64,000 nucleotides of DNA from Euphorbia lathyris (lineage: Eukaryota; Streptophyta; Magnoliopsida; Malpighiales; Euphorbiaceae): positions 37,787,501 through 37,851,500 of the forward strand of contig NC_088915.1 of the NCBI RefSeq assembly GCF_963576675.1, in the 5' to 3' direction. The notes below the pieces were generated by a model. It was not told where the DNA came from and did not search any database. It was given only the letters and a program-made list of their open reading frames with translations. This document shows, one piece after another, positions 29,436 to 63,610 of the stretch (position 1 is the first letter of the stretch; each line of letters opens with the position of its first letter). The translations under genes were made by a program, and so were the position numbers.

Positions 29436-29677
29436 AAGCTATTTTTTTTGCCAATCCGTCATACGGACGTGATAGCCACACGCCTCACCGCATGGTCGGG
29501 CATATGGCTGTCATGCATCACCGTGTGGTCGGACGTGATAGCCACACTCGACCATGCGGTGAGGCGTGTGGCTATCACGCCCGACCACACGGTGAGGCGT
29601 GTGGCTATTACGCCTGACCACGCGTTGAGGTGTGATAGCCACACGCCCACGTGACGGATTGGCAAAAAAAATAGCTT
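29436..29677. repeat. MULE-A subterminal inverted repeat with 33-bp dyad units
   Basis: The outer arms 29436-29461 and 29652-29677 are perfect 26-base inverted repeats (AAGCTATTTTTTTTGCCAAT plus CCGTCA). Inside are GC-rich units such as CGTGATAGCCACACG and CACCGCATGGTCGG recurring at a 33-bp period (29468, 29534; 29486, 29519). They then appear in reverse complement, so the whole folds on itself. It lies in the 3' flank of the OTU exon. Confidence 0.9.
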
Positions 29678-29700
29678 TTTCATCCCCATAACCCATGAAA

Positions 29701-29762
29701 GGGCATTTTCGTCCTTTCACGGGGCTAGGGGTGGGAATTTGGGGCTGGATTTAACAACACCC
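29701..29762. repeat. Right terminal repeat of MULE-A
   Basis: The block GGGCATTTTCGTCC...GGGAATTTGGGGC...AACAACACCC lines up with the MULE-B right end (63115-63172) in base pattern and spacing. It therefore marks the right terminus of MULE-A near 29762. The left terminus is outside the window, so the TSD cannot be tested. Confidence 0.6.
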
Positions 29763-30432
29763 TTTTAATCTAGTTTTTAATTGGGTTCTAAATTTTATTA
29801 AAATACGGTATACATGCCATTTTTATTATTCTTTGTAAATTTTAGAATAGTTTAAAATTCTATTGTAATTCAAAGAGGAAAAGAAACCTAGAACAAAGCT
29901 CATGCCCAAATTAAGGAGATGCAGCACGAAGATTTTCTTATTATAAAAGTGTTAGTTTACTTTTCAATAGAATGTACTAGAATACCCATGTATAGTCAAT
30001 TATGTATTTTGTTTAGCATATCCATTTCACTCTGTTATATCCATAGGCTAGATAAGTCGTAATTAATCAATTAACTTGATAATTAATCCCAAAATATTAA
30101 GCCATTAAATGTTTTCTACAATTGTACCTTATCAAGGTGTCGATCATTTAAATGTGGGTCATGCCAAAGCCATGTACCTTATAGAGGTCTCGGCCCACTA
30201 ATAGTAGCATACATTAACATGGGTTATTTTAAAACGGGACATTAACTCATTTATTGGGAGAAAAAAAAACCATTTATTAATCAAACCTCTTTTTCTTACA
30301 TGTAGATAATCAAACTGTAATTAATAATGACACAATAACTGAACAGCAAATAAGAGTTTAATGGGCTTGGAGCCCAAGAGATTAAATTCTAAAAGAAAAG
30401 AATTGGGATGCTCTTTGTAATGAGTTGGACCG
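29763..30432. other. AT-rich spacer
   Basis: No gene, RNA or clear element was recognised. The sequence is A/T-rich with a short A tract at 30262-30269. Confidence 0.5.
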
Positions 30433-31384
30433 TTGTCAATTAGAAGATCCACTAAAAGAAAAGCGAAAGATGGATATGGACCGGACCCATACCATGTAAT
30501 GCAATGTAATAGAGATCAACCTCTCTGTTCCAACCTCGTGGGTATTGGATATCGGAAGTGGGTCTCTGTTCCAACCTCGTGGGTATTGGATATCGGAAGT
30601 GGGTCACATTTGCTCAAATGTGACAGGACTTATGAATATGAGAATATTCGCATAAGGTGAAGTAGACCTTAGAGTTGGTAACGGTGCACAGGTTGTAGCC
30701 TTAGAGGCAGGAGAGTTCCATCTCGAAATGCCAACATGATTGATCCTAGTCCTAAAGAACTGCTTCTATGTTCCCGTTATGAGTAGGAACGTAATTTCTA
30801 TATCTTGCTTGGACAATGATAGTTTCGATTTTGCTATTTCGAATAGAAGTCTAACTATCCGTCGTGGAGACGTATTTTATGGTGTTGCACCATTAAACAA
30901 TGGCCTATATGTTCTAGACTTGAGTAGCAATAGCTACTTCTATAACATAAACACCAAGTTAGTCAAGCCCAAAGAGCTTAACTCAACTCATTTCTAGCAT
31001 TGTAGGTTAGGACATGTAAATGAGAAAATAATCTCTAAGTTACATGGACTTAGATTCCTAGGGTCATTTGATTTGGAATCATATGACACATGTAAACCCG
31101 GCCTTAGAGGAAAAATGACTAAGAGTCCTTTCAATAAGCAAGTTGAAAGGACCAAAGACTTACTGGAGATGATACACATGGATATATGCGGTCCATTAAG
31201 TACCTTAGCCATAGGTGGTTATAGCTACTTCGTCACTTTTACTTATGACTTCAGTAGATATGACTATGTCTATTTGATGACGCATAAGTCAGAAACCTTA
31301 GAGAGGTTTAAGGACTATAAAAGTGAATTAAAGAACCAACTTGGGCAAAAGTATAATGGTTATCCGATCGCATTGGGCTGGTGA
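30433..31384 (+). pseudogene. Degraded Copia protease-integrase fragment
   Basis: Contains the protease block WVLDIGSGSH, then RNVISISCLDND, an HCRLGHVNEK zinc-finger start, and the integrase onset MIHMDICGPLSTLAIGGYSYFVTF. Several stops and shifts break it. A 41-bp tandem duplication at 30523-30563/30564-30604 lies over the protease site and changes the frame. It resembles the Angela-like Copia at 50830-60303 in its protein motifs. No LTRs were found. Confidence 0.8.
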
Positions 31385-31441
31385 GTACTTAATCCAAGAG
31401 TTCAATTTTTATCTTAGCCTTTTTATCATGTTTTTAGGCTA

Positions 31442-31605
31442 ATTCGATTTTGTTATTTCGAATAAAAGTCTAATTACCATCGTGGAGACGTTATTCATAG
31501 TGTGGCACCATTAAACAATGGTCTATATGTCATAGACTTGAGTAGCAACAACTACTTCTATAACATAAACACCAAGTTAGTCAAGCCCAAAGAGCTTAAC
31601 TCAAT
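31442..31605 (+). repeat. Second copy of part of the Copia fragment
   Basis: About 164 bp repeat 30823-30986 in the same orientation with scattered differences, and both end at the AAGAGCTTAACTCAA block. It may be a local duplication or a remnant of a second Copia copy. Confidence 0.8.
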
Positions 31606-31639
31606 TTATACACCTATTTACGCCTAGTGGAATGTAAAT

Positions 31640-33860
31640 TTACCGAAACAAGAAATTACAGACTCAACCCGGATGAAAATAGAACACAACAGAATTATAT
31701 AATTCTGCAGTAGTGGCTGATCGGCCACCACTATAAAATTACAGAATTCTGCTTCCTCGATGGCATCTGCTTTTTTTAGTTTAGCAATTTCTTCCTCTAG
31801 GGCTTTTTGCCTCTCAGGTCTGTGGTTTCGCCTCTTCTGGGGCTACAGGCGTTGCATCATCCGCCATATTCAGTTTGTGAGTGATTACGTCTAGGCTTAC
31901 TCTTGTTAACACTTCATTCTTCCAGGCGAAAGTACTTTCACACTCTACCAGGGCCTTTGTGATATCTTCTTTTATTTCTGATTTGAACCCTTTAGCAATT
32001 TTCACCTTCTTTCCTTCAGCAATAAGGTACATCTCTGTGTCTCCTAACATCGTGGTGATAGGCTCCTCATCTTCTCCTTCATCATCCTTGGCCCGTGGGC
32101 GGATGCATAACAAGGTTGAATACATCTCTTGTGCCATTTTCTGACTTCATCTGATCATGACTCCTCCTTTACTTGTGGGGACATACATCGTCAGGTGGCG
32201 GATAGAGATCAGAGCTGCGGCTTCAGAGAGGAACGGTCTTCCCAAAATAACATTGTATGTTAATTGCTTGTCTATGATGGAGAATTCTAGATCTCCATTC
32301 CAGGCTTGGTCGTCATCTGCAATCTCACACTCTAATGTTATTTGCCTTTTGGTCTAAATTGTGTGCCCTGTTACTCCAAGGATGTCCACAATTGTTGTTT
32401 CTACCTGTATGGGATCTACTTTCAGCTTGGCAAATGCCCCTCTGGTGATCACGTTGTATGAACCGCCAGTATCTATCATGACTCTCTTCATCTCTCAGCC
32501 TTCAATTGTCATCGTTATCACCAAGGCATCTGCATGAGGGCCAATTGTTGGGCCTGCTTCCGCAAAAGGGTGTTTGAGGGCTGTCTTGTCTAAGACAGAC
32601 GTTTTAGCTTTCTTTGTTGGTGGTTGATATCCAGGTCCGTCAACAATGACGTTGATAACCTTTTTTACTTCTTTTTGGGTTCCGTCTTTTGTTTGTCACC
32701 ATCTTTGTCTTTATCATCTTGGATGAACTTGTCAAGTTTGCCTCTTTCAATCAACCTATCTATCTCTTTCGCCAGCTCCCAGCATGCCTCAGTGTCGTGG
32801 CCATTTCTTCTGTGGAACTGACAGTATGCTTTGGCGTTTCTTCTGAAATTCACATGCTCCCCCCACCCCTTTTGGTTTGGGATATGTAATGTCCCGCTTG
32901 TATTTGATTTTTTCCAGTCATAAGAGGATTTCTTGCTTAGGAGTGTTCAATGTGGTGTATGTTGGTTTTACTCTTGAATTTCTCATGCCTCTGGATGGCA
33001 GGTCAACAACTTTGTCTTTTTCTTTCCTTTTGGATTCACCTCTTTCTTTCTTTTCTAGCGAATTCGGAATTCTATTGATGTCATCTATCTTAATGAACCT
33101 TTTACATCTTTCCATCAATTCTACAAGGCTTTGAGGCTTGTGTATCACTAGTTTTTCTTTTAATCTTGCACATCTGGTATTCTTTATTACTGCTTCTACA
33201 GTTGTATTGACATCAACATTAGTGATCTTGATGCACAACTTGTTGAATTTTTCTATGTACTCCCTGAGAGATTCGCCTTCCCTCTATTTAAGCTCATACA
33301 GTCTTCGACTAGATACGACAGGTGGGATACTTCCTACGAATTTTGCACAAAACTCTCGACTCAGTTGTTCCCAGATGTCGATGGATTTAGTAGCGAGTGA
33401 TTGGAACCAGTCGTATATTGATCACTTCGGGGTGGTTGAGAACATTCTACAAAGGATTCCTTCGTTGGCAGCATAAATATTCATCAACTCTCTATACTGC
33501 CTTGTGTGGGTCTTAGGATTGTCTTCCCTTTTGTAATGGGGTAGGTTGGGAGCTTTAAACAGCCTATCCGGCTCGTAGCCTAGGATCCGCGCTGTGAAAG
33601 GCGAATTCCTATTGACTTGTTCACAAAAAGATGGTGGTGAGAATTCATGTGTCGATTGTTCCATCTTCTGGGAGGGTATTGCGGCCAATGAAAGTTCTGT
33701 TATTTTTAGTAGAGGGTGGAACAGAGGCTCCTCTAGTGGAAGGGGTTGGTCCTTCCAATGTCATTATGCTCGTGGTAAAAACTCTATTAATCTTAGAGCT
33801 CCACGCTCACCGCACCAATTGATATCTCGCAGAATTTCCTTTCACCGGAATGCCTCTTAA
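31640..33860 (-). pseudogene. Tat-lineage Ty3/Gypsy gag-protease remnant
   Basis: On the minus strand, from right to left: a gag onset (YEPDRLFKAPNLPHYKRED, 33688-33422), the capsid part (CARLKEKLVIHKPQSLVEL, 33238-32918), and a zinc-like YCQFHRRNGHDTEACWELAK (32853-32665). Then comes an aspartic-protease stretch near 32500-32190 readable as MIDTGGSYNVI and YNVILGRPFL, then acidic sequence to 31814. These fit gag-protease of the Tat/Retand branch. Multiple stops and shifts occur. RT and integrase are absent, so it is truncated at the left end. Confidence 0.75.
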
Positions 33861-34568
33861 ATACCACCATTTTCTAGAAAAACAGTGATATGGCAGCGCA
33901 GGCGTATCTGTCTTGGCTGGCGGATCTGTATCCTTGCGTCATGTCGGATCCTTGTTGGCGTATCCCTAAGATAGCGGATATAGTCCCTGTGTTGTGGTTT
34001 TATTCCATTAGGTCATTGTATCCATTGACTCTTTGGGTTTCGCCCTAAGGATAATTTCTAGATGTTATCAGGAAACTACCCTAACACCTTATATATAGAA
34101 GATGATGTCACACAACAAGGTACACACAACTCCCCAATTCATGCTGAATTACTATGTACTCGTCTTTTTACACTCTATTAAGTTTAGCATTAGAGCGTGA
34201 TCATTTTTTTCCTATTTTACCACAGACACAACGTAAATTCTAATTGACGTCACAACATTATAGTCAGGTTTATTCGTATCACATGCATTAAAGTTAAATA
34301 TAAAGTTTTTCATAAACTATTGGAGTAATTTGAAAATGATTAGAAATTCAACCTTATAATGTGATGAATTATCATTATGGTATGAAGGTATCCGTCATGT
34401 TCAATGAGGTTAGAAGTTAAAATCTGAAATTAAAGAAAAGTCCAACTGGGTTGTTGAGTGCGAACCAACAAGGCAACCCCAAGTCTGTTTTTTCATTTCA
34501 TGTCACATTAGATCAATTTCAACCTTAACTTTAAAGTAAATCATAATTTTATTCTATGCTCTTTTAAA
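33861..34568. other. Probable LTR remnant and NPC upstream region
   Basis: 33861-34190 includes TATATATAAGG on the minus strand near 34095-34105 and lies where the 5' LTR of the minus-strand Tat element would be, but no second copy is present to prove it. 34191-34568 is AT-rich upstream sequence of the phospholipase gene with nothing further recognised. Confidence 0.4.
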
Positions 34569-34577
34569 GTATAAACC
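34569..34577 (+). promoter_or_regulatory. TATA-like box of the NPC gene
   Basis: GTATAAACC stands about 95 bp upstream of the first ATG, a usual distance for a plant TATA box plus short 5' UTR. Confidence 0.4.
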
Positions 34578-34665
34578 TTTTTCTTGGTATTTTTCTGTCT
34601 TAAATACTTCTTCGTATTTGTTTCTCTCACCTTTCCACCGGAATTTCTTCTCTCGCCCACCGGAA

Positions 34666-39151: not shown

Positions 39152-39208
39152 TCATTTCATCGTATCTGCTCTGTAATTATTTCTGTTGTTTCATCAGAAC
39201 ACGGTATG

Positions 39209-39228
39209 TTTGTAATGTACATTACAAA
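39209..39228. promoter_or_regulatory. 20-bp perfect palindrome in the AMT1 3' region
   Basis: TTTGTAATGTACATTACAAA is perfectly self-complementary and starts 58 bp after the AMT1 stop. UUUGUA words are typical upstream polyadenylation elements in plants, so this may help 3'-end formation on both strands between the convergent AMT1 and AIRP2-like genes (inference). Confidence 0.5.
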
Positions 39229-39495
39229 TTCATGAATCTTTTTATTAATCAAAGCATTGGCCACAAACAACAACAACTAAACCAAACAGACCTAAATTTT
39301 CGTATAACATAGCCATCTAGTTCGAGCTTTCCATATCGCTAGTTTCCATATAACACAACCATCTAGTTTGAGTTTTCCAAAATCTCTACCTTTGCAAGTA
39401 ATAATTCACAACCAAAGACATTTACATTTTCTTTCATTTAATATATACAGTCGTCGCTTATAATACAGTTGGAGTCTTGAGTTTCATAAACATCC

Positions 39496-41237: not shown

Positions 41238-41404
41238 GGCGGATTGAAATTTAGGAGAAAGAAAATCCCATAAAAAAACGAATAATCTTCAGTTTTGAAA
41301 GTCGAAAAACGAAAATTCTTGCTATTGAATAGCTCATATATAAAAGAGAGAAAATGGTAAATTTGTCCAAAAAAAAAGAAAAAAAGAAATGTGTAGGTGA
41401 CAAC

Positions 41405-42521: not shown

Positions 42522-43281
42522 ACAGTAAAACCTCTATATATGAATACTCTATATAAGAATAACCTCTATTTTATTATAAAAAAACTTGGTCCCAACTTGG
42601 GCCAGTTATAAATAGGAATAACCTCCCAAACGTTATTTGTTATAGACTTTTCAAGTCCCATCTTTAGAAACTATGCCTCTATATAGTAATAATTATATAT
42701 AATATATATTAATAATTCAAACTAAATAATAAAATATATAAAAAAAACTATTGAAATTATCTATGAGTTCGAAACACAAAATACAACTTGAAATTATAAA
42801 TATTTGTTAGAATAACCGAATGGTTATTATTCTGTTTTAGGAAATATTGTTGTAGAGTTATTTGTAATTAGTAGGTTGATTTGTTTCCTAGATTAGCTCC
42901 TAAAATTACTCCTAGATTAGCTCCTAAAATTACTCTTGTTTCCTAGATTAGCTCCTAAAACAGAATAATAACCATTCGGTTATTCTAACAATATTTAGTA
43001 TTCTTATTGATGTTTACATTTTTACCATAAAACTCTTCCAATTATTTATATATTGAAAACCTAAACTCTAAATTGAAATTCTAAATATTTAATTTGTTCC
43101 ATTAATGTCTATTGTCATACATTATATATAAACCATGTATGTCGATGATAATTTTAACAAATTTCAAGTGGTATTATGTGTTGAGAAATTTTATTATACC
43201 AAACTTTATTTAGTAATAACCTCCCAATTGTTATACAAATAGTCTGGTCCCAAGTGTATTTCTATATAGAGATTTTACTGT
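42522..43281. mobile_element. MITE with CAGTAAAACCTC-type ends, carrying a nested element
   Basis: Terminal inverted repeats ACAGTAAAACCTCTATATA and TATATAGAGATTTTACTGT (one mismatch) bound 760 bp of AT-rich, noncoding DNA. Further inverted words (GGTCCCAA) occur near both ends. A 186-bp element sits inside. No clear target duplication was identified, so the superfamily is open. Confidence 0.7.
42805..42990. mobile_element. 186-bp fold-back element with 38-bp perfect inverted ends
   Basis: The ends start TGTTAGAATAACCGAATGG and are repeated perfectly in reverse over about 38 bp, ending CCATTCGGTTATTCTAACA. The 5-bp flanks ATATT at 42800-42804 and 42991-42995 match. The centre has the word TAGATTAGCTCCTAAAA about three times in tandem. 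TG...CA ends with a 5-bp TSD would suit an LTR-type or integrase-mobilised sequence, while the long inverted ends suit a DNA transposon. Confidence 0.85.
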
Positions 43282-46821: not shown

Positions 46822-46832
46822 TTGATAAATTG

Positions 46833-47984: not shown

Positions 47985-48595
47985 CAACTCAACTATTAAA
48001 TACCGTTCCCAAATTACTTATCACCATCTCTTTTGGACTTTTTTGTCCTTCTCATAATTTTAATCAAAAACTAAAAATTCTCTCTCCAAAATCATAAACC
48101 CGAACAACAATAATTGAAATTATGAAAATAATTGATGTGTGACAATCCGAATCCCGAAAATGGATGATTACGAGTCGGAAACATTAAGATTACATCTTTT
48201 TATCAAAGAACTCATGAAATAATAAATATTTTTCATGACGATTTTGCATTTTTCATCACAAAAAATTGAATGATTTAGTATTTTTCGTCACTAAAAATTT
48301 TACGATTTTGCATATTTCAAAAATTGACCTAAACGGATGCGGCGTACCGCCCGACCTATGGCAGGAACGAATGCGGCATACCGTTCGACCCATGGCGGGA
48401 ACGGCTGCGGCATACCGTTCGACCCATGGTGGGAACGGATGCGGCATCCGCTCCCGCCATAGGTCGAACGGTATGCCGCATCCGTTTAGGCTAAATTTTG
48501 AATTTTCTCTCAAAAAAAAAAAAATTATGCCAAGGGCAAAATTTTCCAAAGAAAGCGGTGATAAGTAATTTAAGAGCGGTAAATAGCAATACCCA
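47985..48595. mobile_element. Short MULE-derived element with a 34-bp unit array
   Basis: The left end has AAATACCGTTCCC followed by AAATTACTTATCACC. The right end, reversed, has TATTTACCGCTC followed by AAATTACTTATCACCGC, so the ends form an inverted repeat of about 60 bp with mismatches. The right end also matches the base pattern of the MULE-B right end (GGGCA...GCGGTNA...GCGGTANATAGCAATACC). No transposase is encoded. Exact termini and the TSD are uncertain. Confidence 0.65.
48328..48490. repeat. GC-rich inverted repeat made of exact 34-bp units
   Basis: GCGGCATACCGTTCGACC units start at 48339, 48373, 48407 and 48441, exactly 34 bp apart. The last part returns in reverse complement, and CCTAAACGGATGCGGC (48328-48343) pairs perfectly with 48475-48490. 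Each unit holds two small dyads, CGGCATACCG and CCATGG/CCTATGG-type. Confidence 0.92.
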
Positions 48596-49235
48596 TAAAT
48601 CAAATACCCTTCTGTATTTTGATAAATTATTTATAATTGTGTCAATAAATAATTTTTTTTGTAATGCATGTATATTTGTAGTAAATGTTTTAAGTAATTT
48701 TTTTTCTTTTTGTGTTTGGTGTATATTTCTCAAAACTTAATGGTTGACGTTTTAACATATTGTTTGTAACTGTGTCAGTGATACATAATAAATATTTTAG
48801 ATATAATTAATGTTTATTAGATTTAATGTGACGGTTAAATAACGATAAACCAGTATGTTCAATTTTTTTTATTAGATTGTAGTAAAATTGACCTTATTTC
48901 ACAATGTTAAGGTTAAAAATTCATTATTTCATACACTTGGAGTAAATATACACTTCTCCAAGAATAATAGAGATAAATTTAAATTTTATGTTTTTAATTT
49001 TCTATTTAAATGTGTTAGTTTTAATGTGTTAGTTTTACAAATTTACTCCATCGATTTTATATAGAGATATAAAATTGGGTCAAATAGGAGGCCAATCTAC
49101 ATATTTAGACCAATTACCCAACACATTATATATCTAAACTATTTATTTACGAATCGAAACCATTTTTTCATCATCATGTTTCTTCTTCCTCTCTTTGTTT
49201 CTCTCTTCTTGTGCAAATTGAAGACATTATAAAAT
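48596..49235. other. AT-rich spacer with a copy of the right-flank minisatellite
   Basis: AAAATTGACCTTATTTCACA (and on to TTAAGGT) at about 48886 recurs at 63177 beyond MULE-B. A pyrimidine-rich unit GAATCGAAACCATTTTTTCA...TTGTGCAAATT at 49154-49220 recurs at 63275-63407. No gene. The last 9 bp (49227-49235) are the left MULE-B TSD. Confidence 0.7.
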
Positions 49236-49500
49236 GTGAGCGACTATATACCGCCCCCTAATTCCGGTTCACCGCACCCTGTTGACCATATTGCCCTTCT
49301 CATTATTTCAAACAAGAAATTTGAAAATTCCAAATCCTCTCTACTTTCTTTCCGTTTTCAAAAAACCGACCTAAAACGACATGGCACCAAAAGTAGGCAA
49401 GGGCAAAGGATACATGGGTATTACGGTAAGTTTTTCCGTTCAAATAATTAACGAATTCATGATTTTTAGCTCCGAAATCGGCAAAAAAAACCAGAATTCG

Positions 49501-49699
49501 CACCAGGCGGGTGCGATTTACTTGTTCCGCCTACGGTGGAACGCACGAACTGTGCGTTCCACCGTAGGTGGAACAAGTACGCGCCGCGCGCTCCACCTAC
49601 GGTGGAACGCGTATGAGCCACGCGCTCCACCTTATGGTGGAGCGCGCGGTGCGCCCGTTTGGCCCGTCGGCCAGGTGGTGTAAGCCACCCGCCCAGGCC
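49501..49699. repeat. GC-rich 34-bp unit array in PMD intron 1
   Basis: Dyads of the type CCACCTACGGTGG recur with TCC anchors at 49526, 49558, 49592 and 49626 (spacings 32, 34, 34). They alternate with GCGTATGAGCCACGC-type dyads. Outer words CAGGCGGGTG (49504) and CACCCGCCCAGG (49686) pair. The array lies wholly in the intron 49426-49820. Confidence 0.9.
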
Positions 49700-50829
49700 A
49701 AAAACAGGCCAGATTTTGTTTTTTTTTTAAAATTGTACGGACCGGACGTAGGCAGACCCGAACACATAAAAAATAAAAAATTTATGGTAAATTGAATATA
49801 ATAAATAAATAATATTACAGGATGAGGCGGGATCTGACCCCAGACACATGTCTTCACATCTTGTTACTGCATCTGCTCGGCGGGACCGGACGGAGCAGCA
49901 ACGGTTATTGGCGGCCGCCCGGAAGGCACATGCAGCACAGGCGGAGCGTTATGAGGGACAGGATGAGGCGGCTGATATAGAGATGGATGGAGATGACTCT
50001 ATGTCTCGTCCTAGTTCTGATACTATCCCCATACCTCGTGGCGTCGTGACGAGGGGTCGAGACGGACGATTTTCTTCTACCGCAGGATCGTCTTCTGGTA
50101 AGAGAAATTTAAAAATCTGCTTATTTTTATTTGTTTTAATCGTGATTATTGGAAAATATACAAAAAATTTAATGTAAACCGTTTAATGTAATTTCAGGTA
50201 GCAGCAAGCGATCGAGGAGTGCACCAGAGGATGACTGGGTTGTGAAGGACCCCGTACCCGGGGGTCCATTTGATGGTGCTGTGATCCCGAGCTTTCTGGG
50301 ACATGTTGCATGTGCTATCTGGGCCGGTCAGGATAGGGGCGTCCTTAGGTGTCATACTAGATCAAGGTATTGCTCGAAGCTGAGATTATGGTACAGTGGT
50401 TCTTCCGAGACGATCCAGTCGCGTATCGAGTCATCTGGCATGTTCCATTTACCTGGTATTATGCACAGTCATATAGATGCTGCTCTGATCACGGCATTTG
50501 TAGAGCGGTGGCAGCCAGACACGTCATCATTTCACATGCCGTTCGGCGAAATGACCATTTTGATGCATGATGTGTGGGAGATATTGCGCATCCCCGTAGA
50601 TGGTGCCATGGTGACTGCTGATGCGACTATTGATGAGCTTAAGGAGTGCGTGATGGATTTGTTTGGGATGACTCGGGTTGAGTTAGATGCCCGTCACTAT
50701 TCCTCTGGTGGTATACGAGCCGCTTCCGTCATGGAGCACTGTAGAGGTGATCGGATTCCTGAGACCTAGGCTATAGCTTGGACGTGGCTGATGCTCGGTT
50801 CCACCTTGTTCGTAGACAAGAGTGGTGAC

Positions 50830-52689
50830 TGTTGGAAATTAGGCTAAGGTATAGCAGCGGAAATATAAAAATTTTAGCCTACTTCCATATAACCATATGA
50901 TCCATTAATCGTTATTTCATATAAAGAGGGTTAAGAAGAAATACCTTACGATGAACAATCTACCGTTGTTAATGAAGTGCCCACAACTCTAATCCGAGTT
51001 CCCAAGCACAAAGTAAAACACAAGAAGATTAAGTTAGAATCAACCGTATGAGATGCAACCAAAATAGATTGCCTCTAATTAATCAACACAAGATCAAAGA
51101 AAAAGGGAGATAGATGAAATTAATCGATCAATGGAAGCCGTATGAATTCTTGTCCACGAACTAGGGGAGTCGAATTCTTTTCTCTCTCTCTCTTGCAAAA
51201 ATCGAAATTCACAAAAAGGGAGTATCTAGGCTTAGTCGAAATTCTATGTAGTAGGGGGTATATATAATCACTTGTATCTAAACCCTAGTTAGATAGGAAT
51301 AGGTTACTTAATAGGAATTCCATTCGGAATAGAATTCCTAATTATTATCTCACTATATATCTAATATATCTAGGATAATAATAAACAACCTTATTGGATA
51401 ATAATAGGAGTATATTAATCTAATTAAAACTCCTAACTTAATTATCTCTTAATTAATTTAATTCATATTCCTAATCAAATTAGGATTAATAAAATCAAAA
51501 TAATTAATTACTAATTATATATAAATTTCGGCCCCCTTTAATTAAATGGGCCTTACTGGGCTCAATTGGGCTTCCATCAATTAATAACATCCATCTCTCT
51601 TTTGGTTCCAAGTCTTATGTGTGATCCATTAGGTTTTTACTACTTCTGGCCGTATGCAACTATTAAATTAATTTCTTCAAGAATTATATTTAATCTTTGC
51701 ATAACGGAATGATGTACTGAGTATGTTATTGGCAAGTCTGTAATCATTCCCCCAGAGTCCGTTAAGAAGACAGGTTGATTCCGTCGTTAACCTTTCCGTA
51801 TTAGTTACAGTATAATTCGATCATTTATCAACTACATCCTTGAACTGAATCTTATGACTACGGATGATGTCAAGTCACATATAGCGAGACGTTCGTTTTA
51901 CTTGTACAGGCCGAGTCAACTCAAATAGATAGGTTAAGTGAAATCTGTATTTCAAGTCTTAAGCTATCACCTTGCAAGGATTTAGAGTCGAGTCTTCCAC
52001 AAGCGATCCTTGGATGTATCTCCCATTAATCGGGAGTGATAAATGCTCAATCCAATGTATAACTACCCTGACATTACCTCCTGTGACACCTAACCTTTGC
52101 CGTTCACACCCCAGAGTCATCTCTGTTAAGGATCGTGGGACAGCAGGATCAAAGTCTCACATTCAGTAATTCAGGATGACCAATTAACATTCCTTTGAGT
52201 CTGAGGATTAGTTATACCTATTAATACCAATGAGATGAACAGGTGATAAGGATGAATCTACCCATCCTGTTATCTCAAATCGGATCCCCAATCCTAATGA
52301 ACAACGTTTCATCGGATCTATGTAACTGTCTTGATATCTGTATATATGAAGCTCGTGAGATCAGCTTTCTGTCGGACAGAAGACATTGTTACATACAAGT
52401 CTCAACAGTGATATGTCAATCCCAAACATATCACTTGACTTGGGGTGGTTTTAAGTTTATCAGTTTACTATAAAGTTTTGTCCCACTTCATGCTTGTATG
52501 AACACTTTATAATCACTTTAAACAAACTTACGGATTTCCTTTTATTAGACTTTATTTAGTGCTTAAAAAGGGATTGCCTTTATATAGTTACAAAACATAT
52601 ATCTCATTAAACAAATGATATAAAGAACAATTCATTTACATTAAGTTTGTATCCTAGAACAATTGTCTATAGGACACTAAACCCCAATA
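50830..52689 (-). repeat. Angela-like Copia 3' LTR (1860 bp)
   Basis: Near-identical to 58446-60303. A minus-strand polypurine tract (AAGTGGGAGTA) abuts it at 52690. Conserved small open frames in both LTRs come from the duplication and are not taken as genes. Confidence 0.93.
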
Positions 52690-52703
52690 TACTCCCACTT
52701 GGA

Positions 52704-54830
52704 CTAAAGCCAATTGTTTCTAAAACTTATCCCAGTAGAAGTTAAATGACGATCATGTACTTTATGGGTTAAAGGCTTTGTCAACGGATCTGCAACATTG
52801 TCCTCTGTAGGTACTCTTTCTATTCTCACATCTCCTCTAGCCACAATCTCTCTAATGATGTGGTATCGCTTAAGGTAATGCTTGGATGCATTATGAGACC
52901 GTGGTTCCTTTGCTTGCGCAATGGCTCCATTGTTATCACAGTACAATGTAATGGGATTGACAATGTCAGGCACCACACCTAGTTCTGTAATGAACTTTCT
53001 AATCCAAACTGCTTCCTTTGCTGCTTCTGCAGCGGCGATATACTCTGACTCGGTCGTAGAGAAAGCCACGCTTCCCTGCTTGGAACTCTTCCAACTGACC
53101 GCGCCCCCATTCAAGATAAACAGGTATCCTGATTGGGATTTAAAATCATTCTCATCTGTGAGATGACTAGCGTCTGAAAATCCTTCTATTTTCAGATCTC
53201 CTTCTCCGTACACTAGGAACATATCTTTAATCCTTCTCAAGTACTTAAGAATGTTCTTGACGACAATCCAATGCTCATCTCCCGGATTCCCTTGGTAATG
53301 ACTCGTTACAGATAACGCGAACGCTACGTCAGGTCTAGTGCATAGCATAGCATACATAATCGAACCGATCGCGCTGGCGTACGGGACTACAGCCATGCGT
53401 CGTTTGTCATCATCAGTTTTAGGACATTGATGATTGTTTAACTTTACTCCATGTAGCATGGGTAAGTTACCTCGTTTTGATTCAAGCATGCTAAACCGAT
53501 TTAGCACCTTTTCAATGTATGTAGCCTGTGAAAGACCAAGCAGTCTTCTCGATCTATCTCTATAGATCTTTATACCAAGTATATAAGCTGCTTCACCAAG
53601 GTCTTTCATTGAGAAGTTACCGGATAACCATACTTTTACCGACTGTAATAGAGCAATGTCATTTCCCATTAACAGTATATCGTCCACATATAGTATGAGA
53701 AATGCTATAGAGCTCCCACTTGTTTTCTTGTAAATGCAAGCTTCTTCGCAATTTTGTTCGAAACCAAATTGTTTTATGGTTTCGTCAAAACGCTTATTCC
53801 AGCTTCTAGATGCTTGCTTGAGTCCATAAATGGATCTCTGAAGTTTGCAAACTTTATTTGCATCATTCGATATGAAACCTTCAGGCTGCATCATATATAC
53901 ATCCTCAAGCAGGTTTTCGTTTAGGAAAGCTGTTTTCACATCCATTTGTCAAATCTCATAATCGAAGTGAGCGGCAATTGCAAGCATGATTCTGATTGAT
54001 TTGGACATAGCCACAGGAGAGAAAGTTTCGTCATAATCAATTCCTTGCTTCTGACGATATCCTTTCGCTACTAACCTAGCTTTGTAGGTGCTAACCTTTC
54101 CATCCATGTCTGTCTTCTTTTTGAAGATCCACCTACACCCAATGGGAATTATCCCTTCGGGTGGATCAACCAAAGTCCACACTTGGTTAGTATACATGGA
54201 ATCCATTTCAGAATCCATGGCCTCAAGCCATGCTTTAGAATCTGGACTAGTAAGAGCCTCTTCATAGTTTTCGGGTTCTTCGTCTAACATGGGAACCTCA
54301 TTATCATCTCCCACTAGAAAACCATATCTAACTGGGAGTTCACGAACTCTTCGTGATCTACGAATAGGTGGCACTGGAGTCTCATCTAATGGGACTTCTT
54401 CGGGTACCTCAACCGCTTCTGTTGTTTCAGTCGGTGTTTCTTCTTCTTGAACTTCGTCAAGTTCAATCACGCATCCCTTTTGTGTTTCTTCGAGAAACTC
54501 TTTCTCTAAGAAGGTTGCGTGCTTGGATACGATTACTTTCTGATCATCTGGATGATAGAAGTAATATCCTATAGTTTCCTTAGGGTATCCAATGAAGAAA
54601 CATTTATCAGATTTCGAATCTAGTTTGTCGGACGCAATGCGTTTGACAAACGCTGAACAACCCCATACTCTCATGAATGAGAACACGGGTTTCCTACCAA
54701 CGAACAATTCATATGGTGTGGAACTAGCGGATTTAGTTGGTACTCGATTTAGGGTGAAGAGGGCAGTTTCTAAGGCATAGCTCCAGAACGTCTTTGGAAG
54801 TAAGGCCATGCTCATCATGGATCGTACCAT
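52704..54830 (-). pseudogene. Angela-like Copia pol: integrase end, RT, RNase H
   Basis: Reads from the integrase tail (SMALLPKTFWSYALETA) through KARLVAKGYRQKQGIDYDET, a TGA at 53946-53948, MDVKTAFLNENLLEDVYM and the RT catalytic LYVDDILLMG. RNase H follows with FSDASHLTDENDFKSQSG, FSTTESEYIAAAEA and LYCDNNGAIAQA. It ends at 52704. The reverse transcriptase and RNase H are complete in motif content. Confidence 0.92.
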
Positions 54831-56593
54831 ATCTAGTAGGGTACGATTTCTCCTCTCAGATACACCATTGTGTTGTGGTGTATAGGGAGGTCAGTTAGAT
54901 AATTCAGAAAATCATCTGAAAGATATTCGCCACCTCGATCAGATCGAAGCGTCTTTATTTTCCTTTCTAGTTGATTTTCCACTTCATTCTTGAAGCATTT
55001 GAATTTCTCAAAAGCTTCTGATTTGTGCTTCATCAAGTAGACGTAACCATATCGGGTATGGTCATCTATGAAGCTTATGAAGTATCTGAATCCTCCTCTT
55101 GCTTGGACTGACATAGGACCGCATACATCTGAATGAATAAGTCCTAGAGTGTCTGATACACGCTCACCTTTATTGCTAAAGGGTGTCTTTGTCATTTTAC
55201 CTTTTAAACATGATTCACATGTTTCCAATGATTCATGATCGATTGGATCTATAAGCCCATCTGAATGTAGCTTTAGCATGCGTCTCTTGTTTATATTGCC
55301 TAAACGACAATGCCACAAGTAAGTTGAATTATCTATCTTATGTCTTTTGGTATCAATTGCAAAAACAGGAGTTTTGTCATCCAACACATAAATCCCATTT
55401 TGTGATATTCCTGAAAAATAAAAGATCGAATCTTTATAAAAATTGCAACTATTGTTCTTTATTGAAATATGAAAACCGTCGTCAACAAGACGGCTAATAG
55501 AAATAATGTTGCGAGACATTTCAGGAACGTATAAACAATTCCTTAATTCTATTACAAGCCCAGAGGGCAAAGATAAAACATAATCTCCAATTGCGATGGC
55601 GGTAACTCTTGCTCCATTTCCCACTCGCAAGTTTATGCTTCCTTTCTTTAGTTCCTTAGTCTATTTTAGCTCTTGCATATTTGTACAAATATGAGATCCA
55701 CATCCGGTATCAAGTACCTAAGATTCAGACAGTGAAACTGTATTTATTTCAATATAAAACATACCAGATGTTGAAGCACCGCCGTTTCCCTTCTTGAGGG
55801 AGGCTAGGTACTCCTTGCAGTTCCTCTTCCAATGCCTGTCTTTACCACAGAAGTGGCACTCTCCTTTGGGCTTCTTCACTTCCTTTCCCTTTGCTTTGTT
55901 GGGCACGGCTTTCTTACCTTTCTTGGGATATTTAGGATTAGGATAATTCCCTTTCCTCTTCTTTGATCCCTTAATGACAAGAGCCGGTATGGCTTTGTCT
56001 TTCTTTATATTGGGCTCAACCGACTTGAGCATATTTGCAAGCTCTTCAAGAGAGGTTTGCAAGTCATTCATCTGATAGTTCATAATGAATTGTGAATAAC
56101 TTTCTGGGAGGGATTGAAGAATTAAGTCTACACTTAATTCGTTATCCATCGCAAATCCAATACTAGAAAGTTTGGTAATGTAGCCAATCATCTTGACACA
56201 ATGTGTCATGACAGATGTGCCCTCTTGCATCCTACTACGATATAGCAACTTGGATATCTCGTAGCGTTCGCACCTGGTTTGTTTCCCAAACAATTCCTTT
56301 AGGTGTATGATGATGGAATAGGCATCCATTTCCTCATGTTGCCTTTGTAATTCCGGTGTCATCGATGCAAGTATGATGCATCCGGCATGATCATCATCAG
56401 CCTTATGCTTCTAGTAAGCATCAATTTCCTCAATGGGAGCATCATCAGCAGGGATAGGGGGTATCGATGTATCAAGTACATACCCTATCTTATCGAACTT
56501 CAAAACAATTTTGAGGTTACGAAACCAGTCGGTGAAGTTTGAACCATTCAACTTGTTATTGGTAAGAATGTTTTGCAGATTGGTTTTAGTCAT
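54831..56593 (-). pseudogene. Angela-like Copia gag, protease and integrase core
   Basis: Gag starts at 56593 (MTKTNLQNILTNNKLNGSNF). A TAG at 56411-56413 splits it. The knuckle CHFCGKDRHWKRNC is near 55860-55815. After a stop at 55718 comes the protease block VLDTGCGSHIC, and a further TAG lies near 55661. Integrase has HCRLGNINKRRM, CESCLKGK, IHSDVCGPM and TLRSDRGGEYLSDDF. A deletion and frameshift near 54890 remove part of the segment before the catalytic Glu. The same minus frame otherwise runs from gag to integrase. Confidence 0.9.
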
Positions 56594-58432
56594 GATTTTA
56601 AGAGTGTGCGTTTAATTAAACCTGAGAGTGAGAAAGAGTAAACGTATGTCATTCATTTGCTTAAAGTATATCAATCTAAAATTATAGGACTTTTAGTTTA
56701 TTTTAGATTGCTCCCACTATTTTGACAAATTAATAGCCCTCCATATTAATTCGAAGAATTTCACAAATCTTTTAGTGAGCTAGGATCCTAACTCCTGAGA
56801 TTTCGCCTTGAGTTTACTCAACAAGCTAGTCTCATTCATTAGGTAGATTCATATGATCAATCACATCTCTAATGTGATTCCTAGGTTATTGGGTTACTAA
56901 CCACATTAGTAACTAATATGCTATTCATATTAATCCCAACCATCTTGCCCATCAGTTTATGACAACATGAGTTTACTCATCCAATTATCATAATCTAATT
57001 TAAGTATTACCCCATATTCATGAAAGAACGATTTTTGATAATTCAGGTGTTACCATAAGACCCCGAGCTTGAGTTTACTCAACAACCCAAAGGCCCCCAG
57101 TACTGCCGGCTGAATTATAATATTAGGGAGGGGCAACCGATTTTAATAACTTACTTATTTACTTAACTTTTTAATGAAGGATTTTATTTTAGGTCTCATA
57201 ATCTAACGTAGTCTTGATTTGCTTTAGCATACATCAGACACATACATTCACATACATTGGCGTTATGGACATATCATCTAAATTATTCCGTCGAGCCAGA
57301 GACGGAATAAAAGGGCAAACCTAAGGAAATACTAACTATTACATATTTCTCTTTAGGTCCTCCGTCTTCTTCATGGCGCCTTGAAATTACATATTAATTT
57401 CTATACTACTAAAGAAAACTTCAACTGAATTGAAGGGAATTAGATGAGAGGAGAAATTACAATAGATAGTAGATAGGCAGGACTCGCAGGCCCTATTTCA
57501 AAAATACCAAAAGACTAGAGAGAGAGTCCAAATATGTCCATAACTCCAAACATGCATAGACTCAATTAAATAAATTTAATTGGTTGATTACATAACTATC
57601 TTATGTAATATTTATGTTAATCACATTAACTTATCAAATTAACTATCATCCAATTTTACTTCTAATAGTTTCGTATCCTTTTATATTAAACTTTTAGGTT
57701 AATATAACTATACAAAACTTTAATTATGCATGTTCCAATTATTTAGATTTTAATTCATTTAACATTTTGATTTACAAATTGGTAAAACAAACTTTTAAAC
57801 AAATTTTCATTCGATAATCAAAAACAGAAAACTATCAATTTCTGAAATATATATATATTCAAATATAAAACGATTTTAAACCATTTAAAATCAAGTGGGT
57901 ATCGGGCCGGGCCCGAGAGTGGGCCGCTGCTGATTGGCAGCGGCCCTTAGGGCGCGCGGGACGCCGCTGCCTTGCGGCAGCGGCGCCCCAGCGCCGCACG
58001 CAGCTGCTGCCGCGAGGCAGCAGCCGCGCGCGATAGCGGCCAGTCGCGCCGCGAGGCGCGACTCGGCCCGCTATCGCGTTATATATATATATATATATGT
58101 ATCAGATTTTAAAACGATTTTAAAAACGATTTTAAAAATGATTTTCAGAAATAGGAAAAACTACAATAGGTTTCCGTTTTATCTTTAGATTTAATAAAAC
58201 TGATTTTATTAACCTAACTATAAAACTAATAGATTCTGTTATAATGATTATCAACCGAAATAATTAGGAACATATGCATAATCAATTTTAATTAACAATT
58301 AATTAAAACTTATTTATCCTTAGGATTAATTAATCAAAACTTATTTATCAATTAACCTAACCATAAATATTTATTCAATCCTATTGAAAAAACTTCTAAA
58401 TTTTCATATATGAAATAACGGATTTAACGATG
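56594..58432 (-). other. Angela-like Copia leader with a GC-rich hairpin cluster
   Basis: About 1.84 kb between PBS and gag, AT-rich and noncoding, apart from a GC-rich island at 57904-58078. The island holds four perfect stem-loops in a row: 57921-57946 (10-bp stem), 57962-57985 (10-bp), 58003-58024 (9-bp), and 58042-58063 (9-bp) inside an 11-bp outer stem 58029-58039/58068-58078. A (TA)n tract follows at 58079-58098. Confidence 0.8.
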
Positions 58433-58444
58433 GCTCTGATACCA
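58433..58444 (-). promoter_or_regulatory. Primer-binding site of the Angela-like Copia
   Basis: On the minus strand TGGTATCAGAGC follows the 5' LTR end CCAACA after one base; it is the initiator-Met-tRNA primer site. Confidence 0.9.
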
Positions 58445-58445
58445 C

Positions 58446-60303
58446 TGTTGGAAATTAGGCTAAGGTATAGCAGCAGAAATATAAATTTTTTAGCCTACTT
58501 CCATAGAACCATAGGATCCGTTAATCGTTATTTCATATAAAGAGGGTTAAGAAGAAATACCTTACGATGAACAATCTACCGTTGTTAATGAAGTGCCCAC
58601 AACTCTAATCCGAGTTCCCAAGCACAAAGTAAAACACAAGAAGATTAAGTTAGAATCAACCATATGAGATGCAACCAAAATAGGTTGCCTCTAATTAATC
58701 AACACAAGATCAAAGAAAAAGGGAGATAGATGAAATTAATCGATCGATGGAAGCCGTATGAATTCTTGTCGACGAACTAGGGGAGTCGAATTCTTTTCTC
58801 TCTCTCTTACAAAAATCGAAATTCACAAAAGGGGAGTATCTAGGCTTAGTCGAAATTCTATGTAGTAGGGGGTATATATAATCACTTGTATCTAAACCCT
58901 AGTTAGATAGAAATAGATTACTTAATAGGAATTCCATTCGGAATAGAATTCCTAATTATTATCTCACTATATATCTAATATATCTAGGATAATAATAAAC
59001 AACCTTATTGGATAATAATAGGAGTATATTAATCTAATTAAAACTCCTAACTTAATTATCTCTTAATTAATTTAATTCATATTCCTAATCAAATTAGGAT
59101 TAATAAAATCAAAATAATTAATTACTAATTATATATAAATTTCGGCCCCCTTTAATTAAATGGGCCTTACTGGGCTCAATTGGGCTTCCATTAATTAATA
59201 ACATCTATCTCTCTTTTGGTTCCAAGTCTTATGTGTGATCCATTAGGTTCTTACTACTTCTGGCCGTATGCAACTATTAAATTAATTTCTTCAAGAATTA
59301 TATTTAATCTTTGCATAACGGAATGATGTACTGAGTATGTTATTGGCAAGTCTGTAATCATTCCCCCAGAGTCCGTTAAGAAGACAGGTTGATTCCGTCG
59401 TTAACCTTTCCGTATTAGTTACAGTATAATTCGATCATTTATCAACTACATCCTTGAACTGAATCTTATGACTATGGATGATGTCAAGTCACATATAGCG
59501 AGACGTTCGTTTTAATTGTACAGGCCGAGTCAACTCAAATAGATAGGTTAAGTGAAATCTGTATTTCAAGTCTTAAGCTATCACCTTGCAAGGATTTAGA
59601 GTCGAGTCTTCCACAAGCGATCCTTGGATGTATCTCCCATTAATCGGGAGTGATAAATGCTCAATCCAATGTATAACTACCCTGACATTACCTCCTGTGA
59701 CACCCAACCTTTGCCGTTCACACCCCAGAGTCATCTCTGTTAAGGATCGTGGGACAGCAGGATCAAAGTCTCACATTCAGTAATTCAGGATGACCAATTA
59801 ACATTCCTTTGAGTCTGAGGATTAGTTATACCTATTAATACCAATGAGATGAACAGGTGACAAGGATGAATCTACCCATCCTGTTATCTCAAATCGGATC
59901 CCCAATCCTAATGAACAACGTTTCATCGGATCTATGTAACTGTCTTGATATCTGTATATATGAAGCTCGTGAGATCAGCTTTCTGTCGGACAGAAGACAT
60001 TGTTACATACAAGTCTCAACAGTGATATGTCAATCCCAAACATATCACTTGACTTGGGGTGGTTTTAAGTTTATCAGTTTACTATAAAGTTTTGTCTCAC
60101 TTCATGCTTGTATGAACACTTTATAATCACTTTAAACAAACTTACGGATTTCCTTTTATTAGACTTTATTTAGTGCTTAAAAAGGGATTGCCTTTATATA
60201 GTTACAAAACATATATCTCATTAAACAAATGATATAAAGAACAATTCATTTACATTAAGTTTGTATCCTAGAACAATTGTCTATAGGACACTAAACCCCA
60301 ACA
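58446..60303 (-). repeat. Angela-like Copia 5' LTR (1858 bp)
   Basis: Direct copy of 50830-52689 with scattered substitutions. In the minus orientation it starts TGTTGGGG and ends CCAACA. Confidence 0.93.
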
Positions 60304-61468
60304 GTGACCGCATCCGACCTTCTTGTCTGTTAGAGGTGCAGGACTCGGCAGCTGGAGCCGTTGGACTTTCTTGGGGATCGGCTGCACTAGCATATCTATA
60401 CCGTCATCTTGGTATTGCTACCAGAGGAGATTGCGGGCAGATGACGGGTTGCATGACATTGCTCCAGTCCTGGATTTACGAGTATTTTCCTTGCTTCAGG
60501 CCACATCGAGAGGTAGTTACAGTTGACCTGGATCTTCCTAGTGCTTCGATGTGGCCATCTATATCGATGGAGAAGAGCGATGAGCGGCTGAGAGCATTTC
60601 GTGCCCGGCTTGATGTGTTGACGATAGATGAGGTATACTTGCTATATAATTATAAATACTGTTCAATTAAAACAAATTTGTATTACTTGTATGTGTTAAT
60701 GTAATTTTATACATCTGTAGGTGATGTGGATGCCGTATGGCCCTGATGCCATTACGGAGACCCCGAGGACGCTATACGCTGGATGGATACGGTATCGGGA
60801 TGTGATCGAGCCGTACATACCGGGGAGATGCCTTCGACAGCTTGGACATGTGCAGACCATTCCTAGACCGATATTGCAGCCTTCTAAGGCTGTGCGTCCG
60901 TGGACCAGTTTGAAGTATCGTGTAGAGGTGCCAGCTGTGATGGTGCAGGGTATTTGGGACTCTTTTCCCTAGTCGACCGTCCTTAGATTGTCTGTATTCA
61001 CTCCAGCACATACTCCTCAGATTGTGAGGATCAGTACATGCATTGGTACACCCGTCACTCACACCCTCGTCTACTTTCGGAGATTGTTGCACCCGGACCG
61101 ACTGTTTATACTCGCTCAAACAGTGAGATTGTAAGTTATTTTTGGTTTTTCTTTACTGATCTACTAATGTGAAATGATATTTACTGAAGTGTGAAGTGAT
61201 ATTAACTCTGTTTTTTGTTCGTTACTTTTGACAGTGGGTTAGTCGATTAGCTGGCTGGGGTGAAACTGTGTTGGATCACATGAGTCATCTGGACGAGGAT
61301 GCTGCGATTGTATATAGGCAGTCGTTAGAGCAGATTATGGGTGCTTGGCATTTGGCCAAGTGAGTTATGACTGTATTTCGAAGTATTTTAGTACTATTAT
61401 GACTGAATTTGGTATTTTGATATTATCGTTTTTTTGTGGTACGCTTTGTTATTATTGCAAATTTAAAA

Positions 61469-61591
61469 ATACATTACAACGACATAAACTGAAAAAATAA
61501 ATTACAACGACATAAACTGAAAAAAATACATTACAACGACATAAACTGAAAAAAAATACATTACAACGACATAAACGGAAAAAAATACATT
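61469..61591. repeat. 31-bp minisatellite, four copies
   Basis: ACATTACAACGACATAAACT followed by GAAAAAAAT is repeated about four times in tandem, with A-tract length changes, between the PMD gene end and the minus-strand frame at 61597. Confidence 0.9.
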
Positions 61592-61596
61592 AGTCA

Positions 61597-61940
61597 CTAT
61601 CTTCTTCGTACTCGTCAATGTTTGGTGAAGATGTCGCTGGTACACCTGACTGTATTGCAAGGTATATCTCTTTCTCCTCTGCAATATTCGTCTCATATTC
61701 CACAGGAAAAATGTTCCATGGAGCATTTCCTCTATTTCTTGACCAAGCTCATCCTGGAAGGTAATCGTTCTTTGAAGCGCTGATACTCTGTAGTACTCGA
61801 ACCTCTAATTTATAGCGATCCCAATTTTGCACGATCGAGTAAGGATAAGTTCGATGAACCTCATGAGAAATTTCAGACTCTGTCCATCTTAAAAAGATGA
61901 TGGAGTTGAAATTTTTTCTAGGGATATTTCCTTCATTCAA
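61597..61940 (-). CDS. Unrecognised minus-strand frame in MULE-B (broken)
   Basis: A frame starting at 61940 runs through EVHRTYPYSIVQNWDRYKLE and one stop at 61749. It continues with APWNIFPVEYETNIAEEKE and VPATSSPNIDEYEEDSD to a TAA at 61591-61593. It lies just downstream of the truncated transposase, on the same strand. No family was recognised. An acidic end like this could be the real C-terminus of a gene whose middle was deleted, or a chance frame. Confidence 0.3.
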
Positions 61941-63035
61941 ACTGTGTGTGCAATGAACACATCAGCTGACTCTGGATGTGCCATGAACACATGCGTTATC
62001 ACACCTGAATCAGCCTGTGTGTAATTGACATATTTGTTCTCCACAGCAATATGGTAGAATTGACTAGCCAGGTCTCTACCTTCAAACCCGTCCCTCCTCA
62101 TTTTGTCCCTGTAATTATATATGTGTTTAATTACTGAGTTGTCCTCTAAGTGTTTTTCTTTAACTGCTGCTAAAATAGCACAGGGCTTTGCTTGAGCTGA
62201 AGTCATATCACGCATAATTTGTTTAGATGCGATACTGAGTCCGCTCATTTGCCGACTTCCCTCTGGATACATACGCATTGTATGGTTATGCATTCCAGTT
62301 AACCCAGCCTTAGCCTGTATCCCCCATCCAGAAAGGTCTGCATGTTGATAGGCTTTAATCTGAAATTTACAGCGGCACGCTTTAGTTTTACTTTTCCTAA
62401 TTGCAGGATCTTCATCAATTTTCACAACACCTCTATATCGTTCACCCCGTGAACATCGCAACAGCTTCTGTTTTCCCCCATGTTTGTGCGAAGATATTAC
62501 AATCTCAAACCCATTCTAAATAGCTATCTTTTTTGCCCAATCAATAGCATCCTGACATGAGGGGAAAACGGTATCCGTTATGAAACGTGAACTATAATCA
62601 ATGTTATCGGGGTTCCAATCTTCTATCGGTACCTGAATATACAAAAAATTGACATTAAAATTAAAAAAAAATAGTTCGGGGCTATTTCTCCCGTGCAAAA
62701 ATAGTTCGGGGCAATTTCTGCCCAATTTTGCCTGAACGGGCAGGCTGCCCGTTTCACCATAGGTGGAAACGGGCAGCGCGTACTGCCCGTTCCGTAGGTG
62801 GAACGGGTGGCGCATACCACCCGTTCCATGGGTGGAGCGGGTGGCGCATACCACCCGTTCCTTAGGCCGAATGGGTAGTTCATCCGTTCGGCCTAGGGAA
62901 CGGGTGGTATGCGCCACCCGCCCAGGCAAAAACCAAAAAAAAAAAAAAAATTCGTAAATACATAAATAACGTTTTTAATAATCGTAATATTACCTCGTGT
63001 TCGAACTCATTATCTTCGGGAATGCTTGGATCCAT
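61937..63035 (-). pseudogene. MULE-B transposase, N-terminal part, DDE domain missing
   Basis: Exon 1 is 63035-62994 (MDPSIPEDNEFEHE). The intron runs from GT at 62993 to AG at 62633. Exon 2 starts 62632 with VPIEDWNPDNIDYSSRF. A TAG at 62516-62518 is followed by NGFEIVISSHKHGG, the zinc domain (RCSRG, CRCKF, GMHNH), RQMSGLSIASK, YNYRDKMRRDGFEG and VITHVFMAHPES. The frame ends at 61937, just where the catalytic DDE domain should begin. It is the homologue of the MULE-A fragments at 918-1282 and 16322-16670. The transposase would bind the terminal repeats and cut, but this copy has no catalytic core. Confidence 0.85.
62726..62932. repeat. GC-rich 34-bp unit array in transposase intron 1
   Basis: GCGCATACCACCCGTTCC-type units start at 62776, 62810 and 62844, exactly 34 bp apart. 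The 24-base block at 62838-62861 pairs perfectly with 62897-62920, and the inner TAGGCCGAA pairs with TTCGGCCTA. The whole lies in the intron 62993-62633. Confidence 0.92.
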
Positions 63036-63600: not shown

Positions 63601-63610
63601 ACTTCGCATT

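Follow-up and report, generated by a model that had tools for sequence, protein, structure and literature searches.

GC-rich arrays of tandem 33- or 34-bp units are regular parts of related MULEs in the genome of Euphorbia lathyris, a statement that holds for the element tips examined. Four such arrays, A1 to A4, lie in the window (the whole stretch of 64,000 nucleotides analysed here) where a sequence-only reading had placed them. The best explanation, to which we give an even chance of being right, is that the arrays act in cis as subterminal components of these elements and that their dyads are putative protein-binding sites.

Period and strong folding of the four arrays confirmed that earlier reading. 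Among lags of 5-89, the top self-match fell at lag 33 for A1 (29448-29665; score 0.52) and at lag 34 for A2 (48328-48490), A3 (49501-49699) and A4 (62726-62932), with scores of 0.75, 0.45 and 0.53. All four scores exceed the 95th percentile of the maxima reached by shuffles (0.37-0.41). Folding energies for A1 to A4 were -180, -115, -148 and -169 kcal/mol, and comparison of each array with 60 mononucleotide shuffles gave z-scores of -18.5, -10.6, -13.6 and -17.8. Two dyads per unit, as had been proposed, were recovered in A3 and A4, where the detected dyad centres are mostly 16-17 bp apart; in A2 the automatic search detected a single centre, and the dyads were read by eye. The further proposal that each whole array folds back on itself describes A2, the sole array forming one simple hairpin, and in part A1 and A4, which fold into lobes enclosed by a closing stem. 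It does not describe A3, which folds chiefly into a row of stem-loops.

The letters of the units differ between arrays, as had been noted, yet the period is 33 bp in the OTU type and 34 bp in A2 to A4, and the arrays are related. For the pairs A2-A3, A2-A4, A3-A4 and A1-A3, the observed similarity score was reached by none of 300 shuffles of either kind; similarity is weak for A1-A4 and A1-A2, since 14 and 36 of 300 pair-preserving shuffles, respectively, reached the observed score. Pairing between the arms of each dyad in A3 exceeds that of re-dealt arms (0.478 vs 0.372 ± 0.020, with a maximum of 0.445 in 2000). The sign of this arm covariation was reversed in A4 (0.112 vs 0.330) and A2 (0.317 vs 0.451), for which an off-centre anchor is an unproven reading. 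A fold scan of the window also showed a further GC-rich hairpin near 57890-58080; it was rejected as an additional array, having no 33- or 34-bp period and no similarity to A1-A4 beyond that of shuffles.

Four separate MULE contexts had been proposed for the arrays, and these reduce to three elements, because A3 and A4 are the two ends of a single PMD-type MULE (49236-63172) with a Copia element nested within it. Its TIR arms (49244-49326 and 63083-63165) are 84% alike, and a perfect 9-bp target duplication, TTATAAAAT, flanks it on both sides (49227-49235 and 63173-63181). A3 lies in the predicted intron 1 (49426-49820) of a PMD gene whose predicted first exon occupies 49381-49425 on the forward strand and whose later exons contain the PMD domain PF10536. 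A4 lies in the predicted intron 1 (62633-62993) of a transposase-type gene on the reverse strand, with its predicted first exon at 62994-63035 and its N-terminal part, interrupted by one in-frame stop, at 61937-62632; splice sites in both genes were placed by inspection only. The 61937-62632 segment had no Pfam match, and this PMD-type copy as a whole had no Pfam transposase match, but the segment shares 58% identity over 104 aa with the OTU-type transposase. A2 is the core of a roughly 600-bp derivative bounded by terminal repeat arms at 48001-48061 and 48521-48581 that are 77% complementary, and the family to which it belongs consists of tips plus array.

A1, with six loop slots, belongs to an OTU-type MULE and lies close to its right end; the element's right terminal region (29680-29762) ends in ...AACAACACCC at 29762. 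A left tip 1390 bp before the start of the window probably belongs to the same element. The last coding piece (28663-29316, forward strand) had no Pfam match, and its OTU-like label comes from a DGNC motif recognised by eye. Assignment of the OTU type to MULEs is based on the MULE transposase domain PF10551 in copies L030 (1.2e-24) and L029 (3.9e-13), together with TIR pairs and target duplications, the latter measuring about 8-11 bp in MULEs. Left and right OTU-type tips share a TIR identity of 73-80% over 56 nt, and an 8-bp target duplication was seen by eye in four of six elements (L030, L031, L032 and L034); that of L029 is imperfect, and the right tip of L033 is cut. Left and right arrays are about 71-83% alike in matched stretches and differ in their loops. 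We also considered A1 as an independent foldback element merely located in a MULE, in keeping with the high number of first-look candidates (more than a thousand per query in the genome) and their near-constant length. This idea was rejected as very improbable, since the same right TIR adjoins 35 of 35 A1 copies and the copies have flanks in common.

The association of arrays with element tips was investigated by genome searches with array-free queries, which stop before the array; the tips counted are the best-scoring copies and are therefore probably young. An array was present in all 20 of the OTU-type left tips fetched from 40 found, and in 31 of 31 left tips overall. Arrays occurred at both ends in the first six OTU-type elements inspected by blastn, as well as in all 11 whose left tip is intact. 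All 29 PMD-type tips examined, from 40 found, carried an array, and 20 of 40 A4-type matches were paired with a properly oriented A3-type match. Copies without arrays, which the sequence-only reading had named as evidence against itself, were thus absent from both of these samples. They may exist among right OTU-type tips, because the exact array-end motif was found in only 110 of 247 exact tips and a loose capture-recapture estimate puts arrays at about 193 of 225. Elements with both ends have one array near each, placed in the predicted first intron of the gene starting there (both ends of the PMD type, left end of the OTU type); the right OTU-type array follows the last gene, at a distance of about 100 bp from the tip. 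Deletion derivatives of 1546 bp (L032) and 2019 bp retain arrays, and one of 640 bp (L104) has one array left. Since palindromes may favour the jumps that form such derivatives, persistence of arrays there need not mean function. Taken together, these data agree with the earlier claim that the arrays belong to MULEs and that period and dyads are conserved while the letters change. Beyond this genome, a search for the TIR pattern in viral contigs and a search of plasmids with a 401-base query gave no matches. Relatives of the transposase were seen in Euphorbia peplus and Mercurialis annua.

The right OTU-type arrays are built of six slots. The 7-base loops of these slots are found in two states, one the exact reverse complement of the other, and all six slots are kept in 35 of 35 copies, picked by similarity to A1 of the window. 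Preservation of inversions to keep the two halves of the array complementary was considered but not supported: the facing slots 2 and 5 are equal in 25 of the 35 copies (RR in 15, FF in 10) and complementary in the other 10. On a tree of the arrays with loops masked, slots 1, 2 and 5 require at least 3, 4 and 5 changes of state, and on a tree of the flanks 5, 8 and 6; both trees are poor, slot 1 on the flank tree doing no better than shuffled labels (5 vs 4.8). The reverse-complement states support recombination or conversion within arrays, in agreement with an earlier guess of recombination-driven repeats. Their source need not be repeated inversion, as slots or copies might instead have converted one another.

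Such turnover is also expected of a passive minisatellite, in which palindromic arrays born once in an ancestral MULE have since hitch-hiked without function, altered by hairpin-driven recombination. We regard this as a less probable account than cis-acting sites, though the leading alternative to them. Loop inversion, unit gain and loss, and shuffling of modules are what unconstrained palindromic repeats would show; the number of units in left arrays varies from 4 to 7, and recent changes in the outer A1 stem are mostly uncompensated. Set against it are the presence of arrays in every left OTU-type and every PMD-type tip examined, the constancy of six slots in the right arrays, albeit in copies chosen for resemblance to the array in the window, and the retention of dyads in A3 with different arms.

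Alternatively, the arrays might act as RNA, with double-stranded introns or 3′ regions giving rise to siRNAs, for self-silencing or as a decoy, or influencing the splicing of intron 1. The very strong folds and the location of three window arrays or their counterparts within a predicted first intron are consistent with this. We nevertheless consider it unlikely, as neither the lobed shape into which A1, A3 and A4 fold nor the prevalence of equal rather than complementary states in slots 2 and 5 suggests selection for one long hairpin. In addition, CpG transitions are rarer in arrays (4.5%) than in the neighbouring TIR (9.7%, from few flank CpG columns) and so give, weakly, no sign of extra methylation.

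Several known systems resemble the arrays in part, and none of the titles and abstracts retrieved in searches of open papers described them. As outlined in PMC2613891, CACTA elements (En/Spm; soybean Tgmt*) have subterminal stem-loop repeats that are bound by TNPA-like proteins and serve as cis-determinants. The elements described here share this layout of palindromic, strongly family-specific repeat rows just inside both ends. They belong to another superfamily, with a MULE domain instead of a CACTA-type transposase and with tips GTGAGCGAC / GGTATTGC and GTGGATT / GGGTGTT in place of CACTA termini; the CACTA motif given there is shorter, whereas the present units are 33/34-bp dyad pairs that often lie within a predicted first intron, that have loops of two states and whose binding is putative. 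In VANDAL MULEs of Arabidopsis, VANC targets are short single motifs, YAGTATTAY and AGTTGTCC/AC (PMC5735166, PMC10398659). These too are non-coding tandem repeats of MULEs, found also in introns of the elements' own genes and diverging fast between families, but the motifs are short, palindromes go unmentioned in the parts of those papers drawn on here, and VANDAL TIRs are described as degenerate whereas the present elements have clear TIR pairs and one family has a PMD gene. Muta1 and its relatives, mosquito MULEs termed 'type 2 Foldback', likewise have subterminal tandem repeats, 8-9-bp target duplications and many non-autonomous derivatives retaining the ends (PMC5225508); their repeats, as reported there, are 9-15 bp and within the TIRs themselves, in contrast to 33/34-bp double dyads that lie inward of the TIRs and are not alike at the two ends. 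Loops between inverted repeats are also found in either orientation in hairpins of chloroplast spacers, according to PMC2903610; here the setting is a nuclear transposon with serial slots, for which slot-to-slot conversion is an alternative.

By analogy with the CACTA subterminal repeats and the VANDAL target repeats, the arrays are probably bound by an element-encoded protein. The dyads would then be serial binding sites for a DNA-binding protein such as the N-terminal region of the transposase or the PMD protein, and the bound array might serve in end recognition or in shielding the element's own promoters from silencing. Hairpin-internal inversion and conversion, together with unit gain and loss, would allow rapid drift of the letters under constant symmetry and spacing, and it is proposed that related families therefore acquire different addresses. 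A bolder version, which we hold to be distinctly improbable, is a structural address system: rows of palindromes would be recognised, as cruciforms or paired half-sites, by symmetry and spacing more than by letters, and slots would switch between reverse-complement states, so that families could separate and evade sequence-based silencing without loss of function. The arrays have the look of a rapidly evolving transposon site for docking or control. MULE transposases are known to bind chiefly within TIRs. A subterminal array of constant layout and variable letters, shared by related MULE families of one genome, makes the coevolution of an element's protein with its DNA target testable, and hairpin-loop inversion in nuclear DNA is densely recorded in these natural arrays.

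Four GC-rich dyad arrays (A1, 29448-29665; A2, 48328-48490; A3, 49501-49699; A4, 62726-62932) are present as the sequence-only reading had described them, with the periods it had reported: the best self-match lag is 33 for A1 and 34 for each of A2, A3 and A4. Folding energies 10.6-18.5 standard deviations below those of shuffles uphold the proposed fold-back. A2 is the only single plain hairpin among the four; A1 and A4 form lobes enclosed by a closing stem and A3 mainly stem-loops in a row. Two dyads per unit, with centres mostly 16-17 bp apart, were recovered in A3 and A4.

The arrays had also been assigned to four separate MULE contexts, which does not hold for A3 and A4. Both belong to a single MULE (49236-63172), one at either end; it has TTATAAAAT on each flank and contains a nested Copia. 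The gene starting at its left tip encodes a plant mobile domain (PF10536), hence PMD-type, and the gene starting at its right tip, which is convergent, is of transposase type; A3 and A4 lie within the respective predicted first introns, all splice sites being predicted by inspection only. The transposase-type gene copy carries an in-frame stop, and no catalytic domain was recognised by eye in its frames. Within the Copia, between right LTR and gag, is a further GC-rich hairpin row (57890-58080; 200-nt fold -148 kcal/mol) that lacks the 33/34-bp period and is unrelated to the four arrays. Just outside the MULE is an AT-rich inverted repeat built on GAAGCAAACTCAT (63610-63739; 53-nt arms, 89% complementary).

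A second MULE has its right tip at 29762, with A1 situated 97 bp further in; we take this element to be OTU-type from a motif recognised by inspection, there being no Pfam hit. A left tip bearing an array (locus L112) lies 1390 bp before the window start (G000:C6:37786111) and probably belongs to the same element, which is seemingly split by nested LTR elements into pieces near 907-1288, 16350-16400 and 28080-29316. A2 is the core of a ∼600-bp derivative having its own terminal repeats. The tips around A2, A3 and A4 are 69-92% similar to one another and weakly resemble the A1 tip (29 nt, E 0.64), and the OTU-type and PMD-type transposases share 58% over 104 aa. A MITE-like stretch at 42804-42991 has inverted ends of 39 nt that match perfectly, together with an internal direct repeat.

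First-look candidates in the 1.02-Gb genome numbered 1642 for the A1 array, 1124 for the A4 end, 1119 for the A3 end and 2382 for A2; these are not copy numbers, because only 40 per query were scored. An A3-type partner lay within 80 kb of 20 of the 40 A4-type matches, at spans of 2.0-37.3 kb. The OTU-type right terminal inverted repeat (TIR) adjoins all 35 A1-type array copies, comprising that of the window itself and those at 34 of 39 further loci from the A1-array search. Copies of these MULEs without arrays, the outcome that would have told against the sequence-only reading, were not found among the left OTU-type and PMD-type transposase-end tips examined, all best-scoring copies. The left OTU-type tip was intact in 11 of 19 long loci surrounding A1-type arrays (6 first inspected, 13 later) and absent or partial within the stretch in the other 8; in all 11 the left array is present, with folds between -129 and -184. 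A query ending before the array found 40 left tips, of which 24 were covered: the 20 fetched all carry one (200-nt folds -97 to -172), and 4 more were among the 11. For the PMD-type transposase end, an array-free query gave 40 tips, of which 23, including the window's own, coincide with A4-end array matches; an array was present in 6/6 fetched from the remaining 17.

An exact 25-mer of the right OTU-type tip occurs 247 times, with GGCAAAAA at array distance in 110 and GATAGCCA at slot-6 distance in 33, slots being the loop positions of an array. Twenty-four of these 33 fall within the range of the 100 listed of the 110 GGCAAAAA tips, and 12 of the 24 are on both lists; GGCAAAAA therefore misses about half of the array-bearing right tips. 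A Chapman estimate, loose with 12 recaptures, places an array in 193 of ∼225 right tips, and some may lack one. Among similarity-chosen copies GGCAAAAA was found in 13/14 exact right tips, so that the chosen sample is not typical. Ten matches to this tip plus array motif, all sharing the same strand and length, cluster within ∼350 kb (C4:7495973-7848891) and are a local segmental amplification.

All 35 of 35 copies of the right OTU-type array have six slots, spaced 33 bp apart except at the central step of three copies (31, 32, 28). By strict match, 204 of the 210 slots are within two letters of ATAGCCA (F) or its reverse complement TGGCTAT (R), which differ at all seven places. Slots 3, 4 and 6 are invariant in state, while slots 1 (R 30, F 5), 2 (R 19, F 16) and 5 (R 21, F 14) vary, giving five combinations. 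Since slots occur in two reverse-complement states, loops were at some time inverted in place; the states may be due either to repeated inversion or to a small number of inversions combined with conversion from slot to slot or copy to copy. Left arrays, as read in the first six elements, have 4-7 slots at 33-bp steps (apart from single steps of 25 and 46), and left arrays hold reverse-complement loop pairs, such as ATGT/ACAT. An extra 34-bp unit is present in 4/21 A4 copies, and A3 copies show reshuffled palindromic modules with differing arms. Arms co-change in A3. They do so too in the outer stem of A1, where mismatches average 1.86 vs 3.04 when re-dealt (0/5000 as low); three columns carry the A1 effect, implying few events, and recent changes there are mostly uncompensated. 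In A4, three copies (L079, L080, L081) share a changed left-arm loop, matched in the right arm of L080 and L081 but not L079.

Deletion derivatives retain arrays. A 640-bp copy (L104) consists of the left tip and one left unit followed by a right-hand portion that includes that side's array and TIR, and both arrays are kept in elements of 1546 bp (L032) and 2019 bp (C9:66094522-66096540). Such retention would fit a part required in cis, and could also be explained if the palindromes themselves favour the jumps that generate derivatives. The arrays may alternatively be siRNA-producing hairpins; weakly against this, CpG transitions are rarer in the arrays than in the neighbouring TIR, a difference that gives no sign of extra methylation. 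In A1 array copies (L009-L028, L035-L048 and the window) they affect 77/1714 site-copies against 34/350 in the adjacent TIR, about half the rate, with few flank columns; conversion between arms is perhaps the cause.

The nearest known systems, from the portions of the reports available, are the subterminal repeats of CACTA elements (PMC2613891), VANC target repeats (PMC5735166, PMC10398659) and Muta1 subterminal repeats (PMC5225508); the double-dyad 33/34-bp unit with two-state loops found here does not appear in those portions. Taken together, the arrays are regular parts of related MULE families, end-proximal, palindromic and evolving unit by unit, and we infer that they are protein-bound cis sites.
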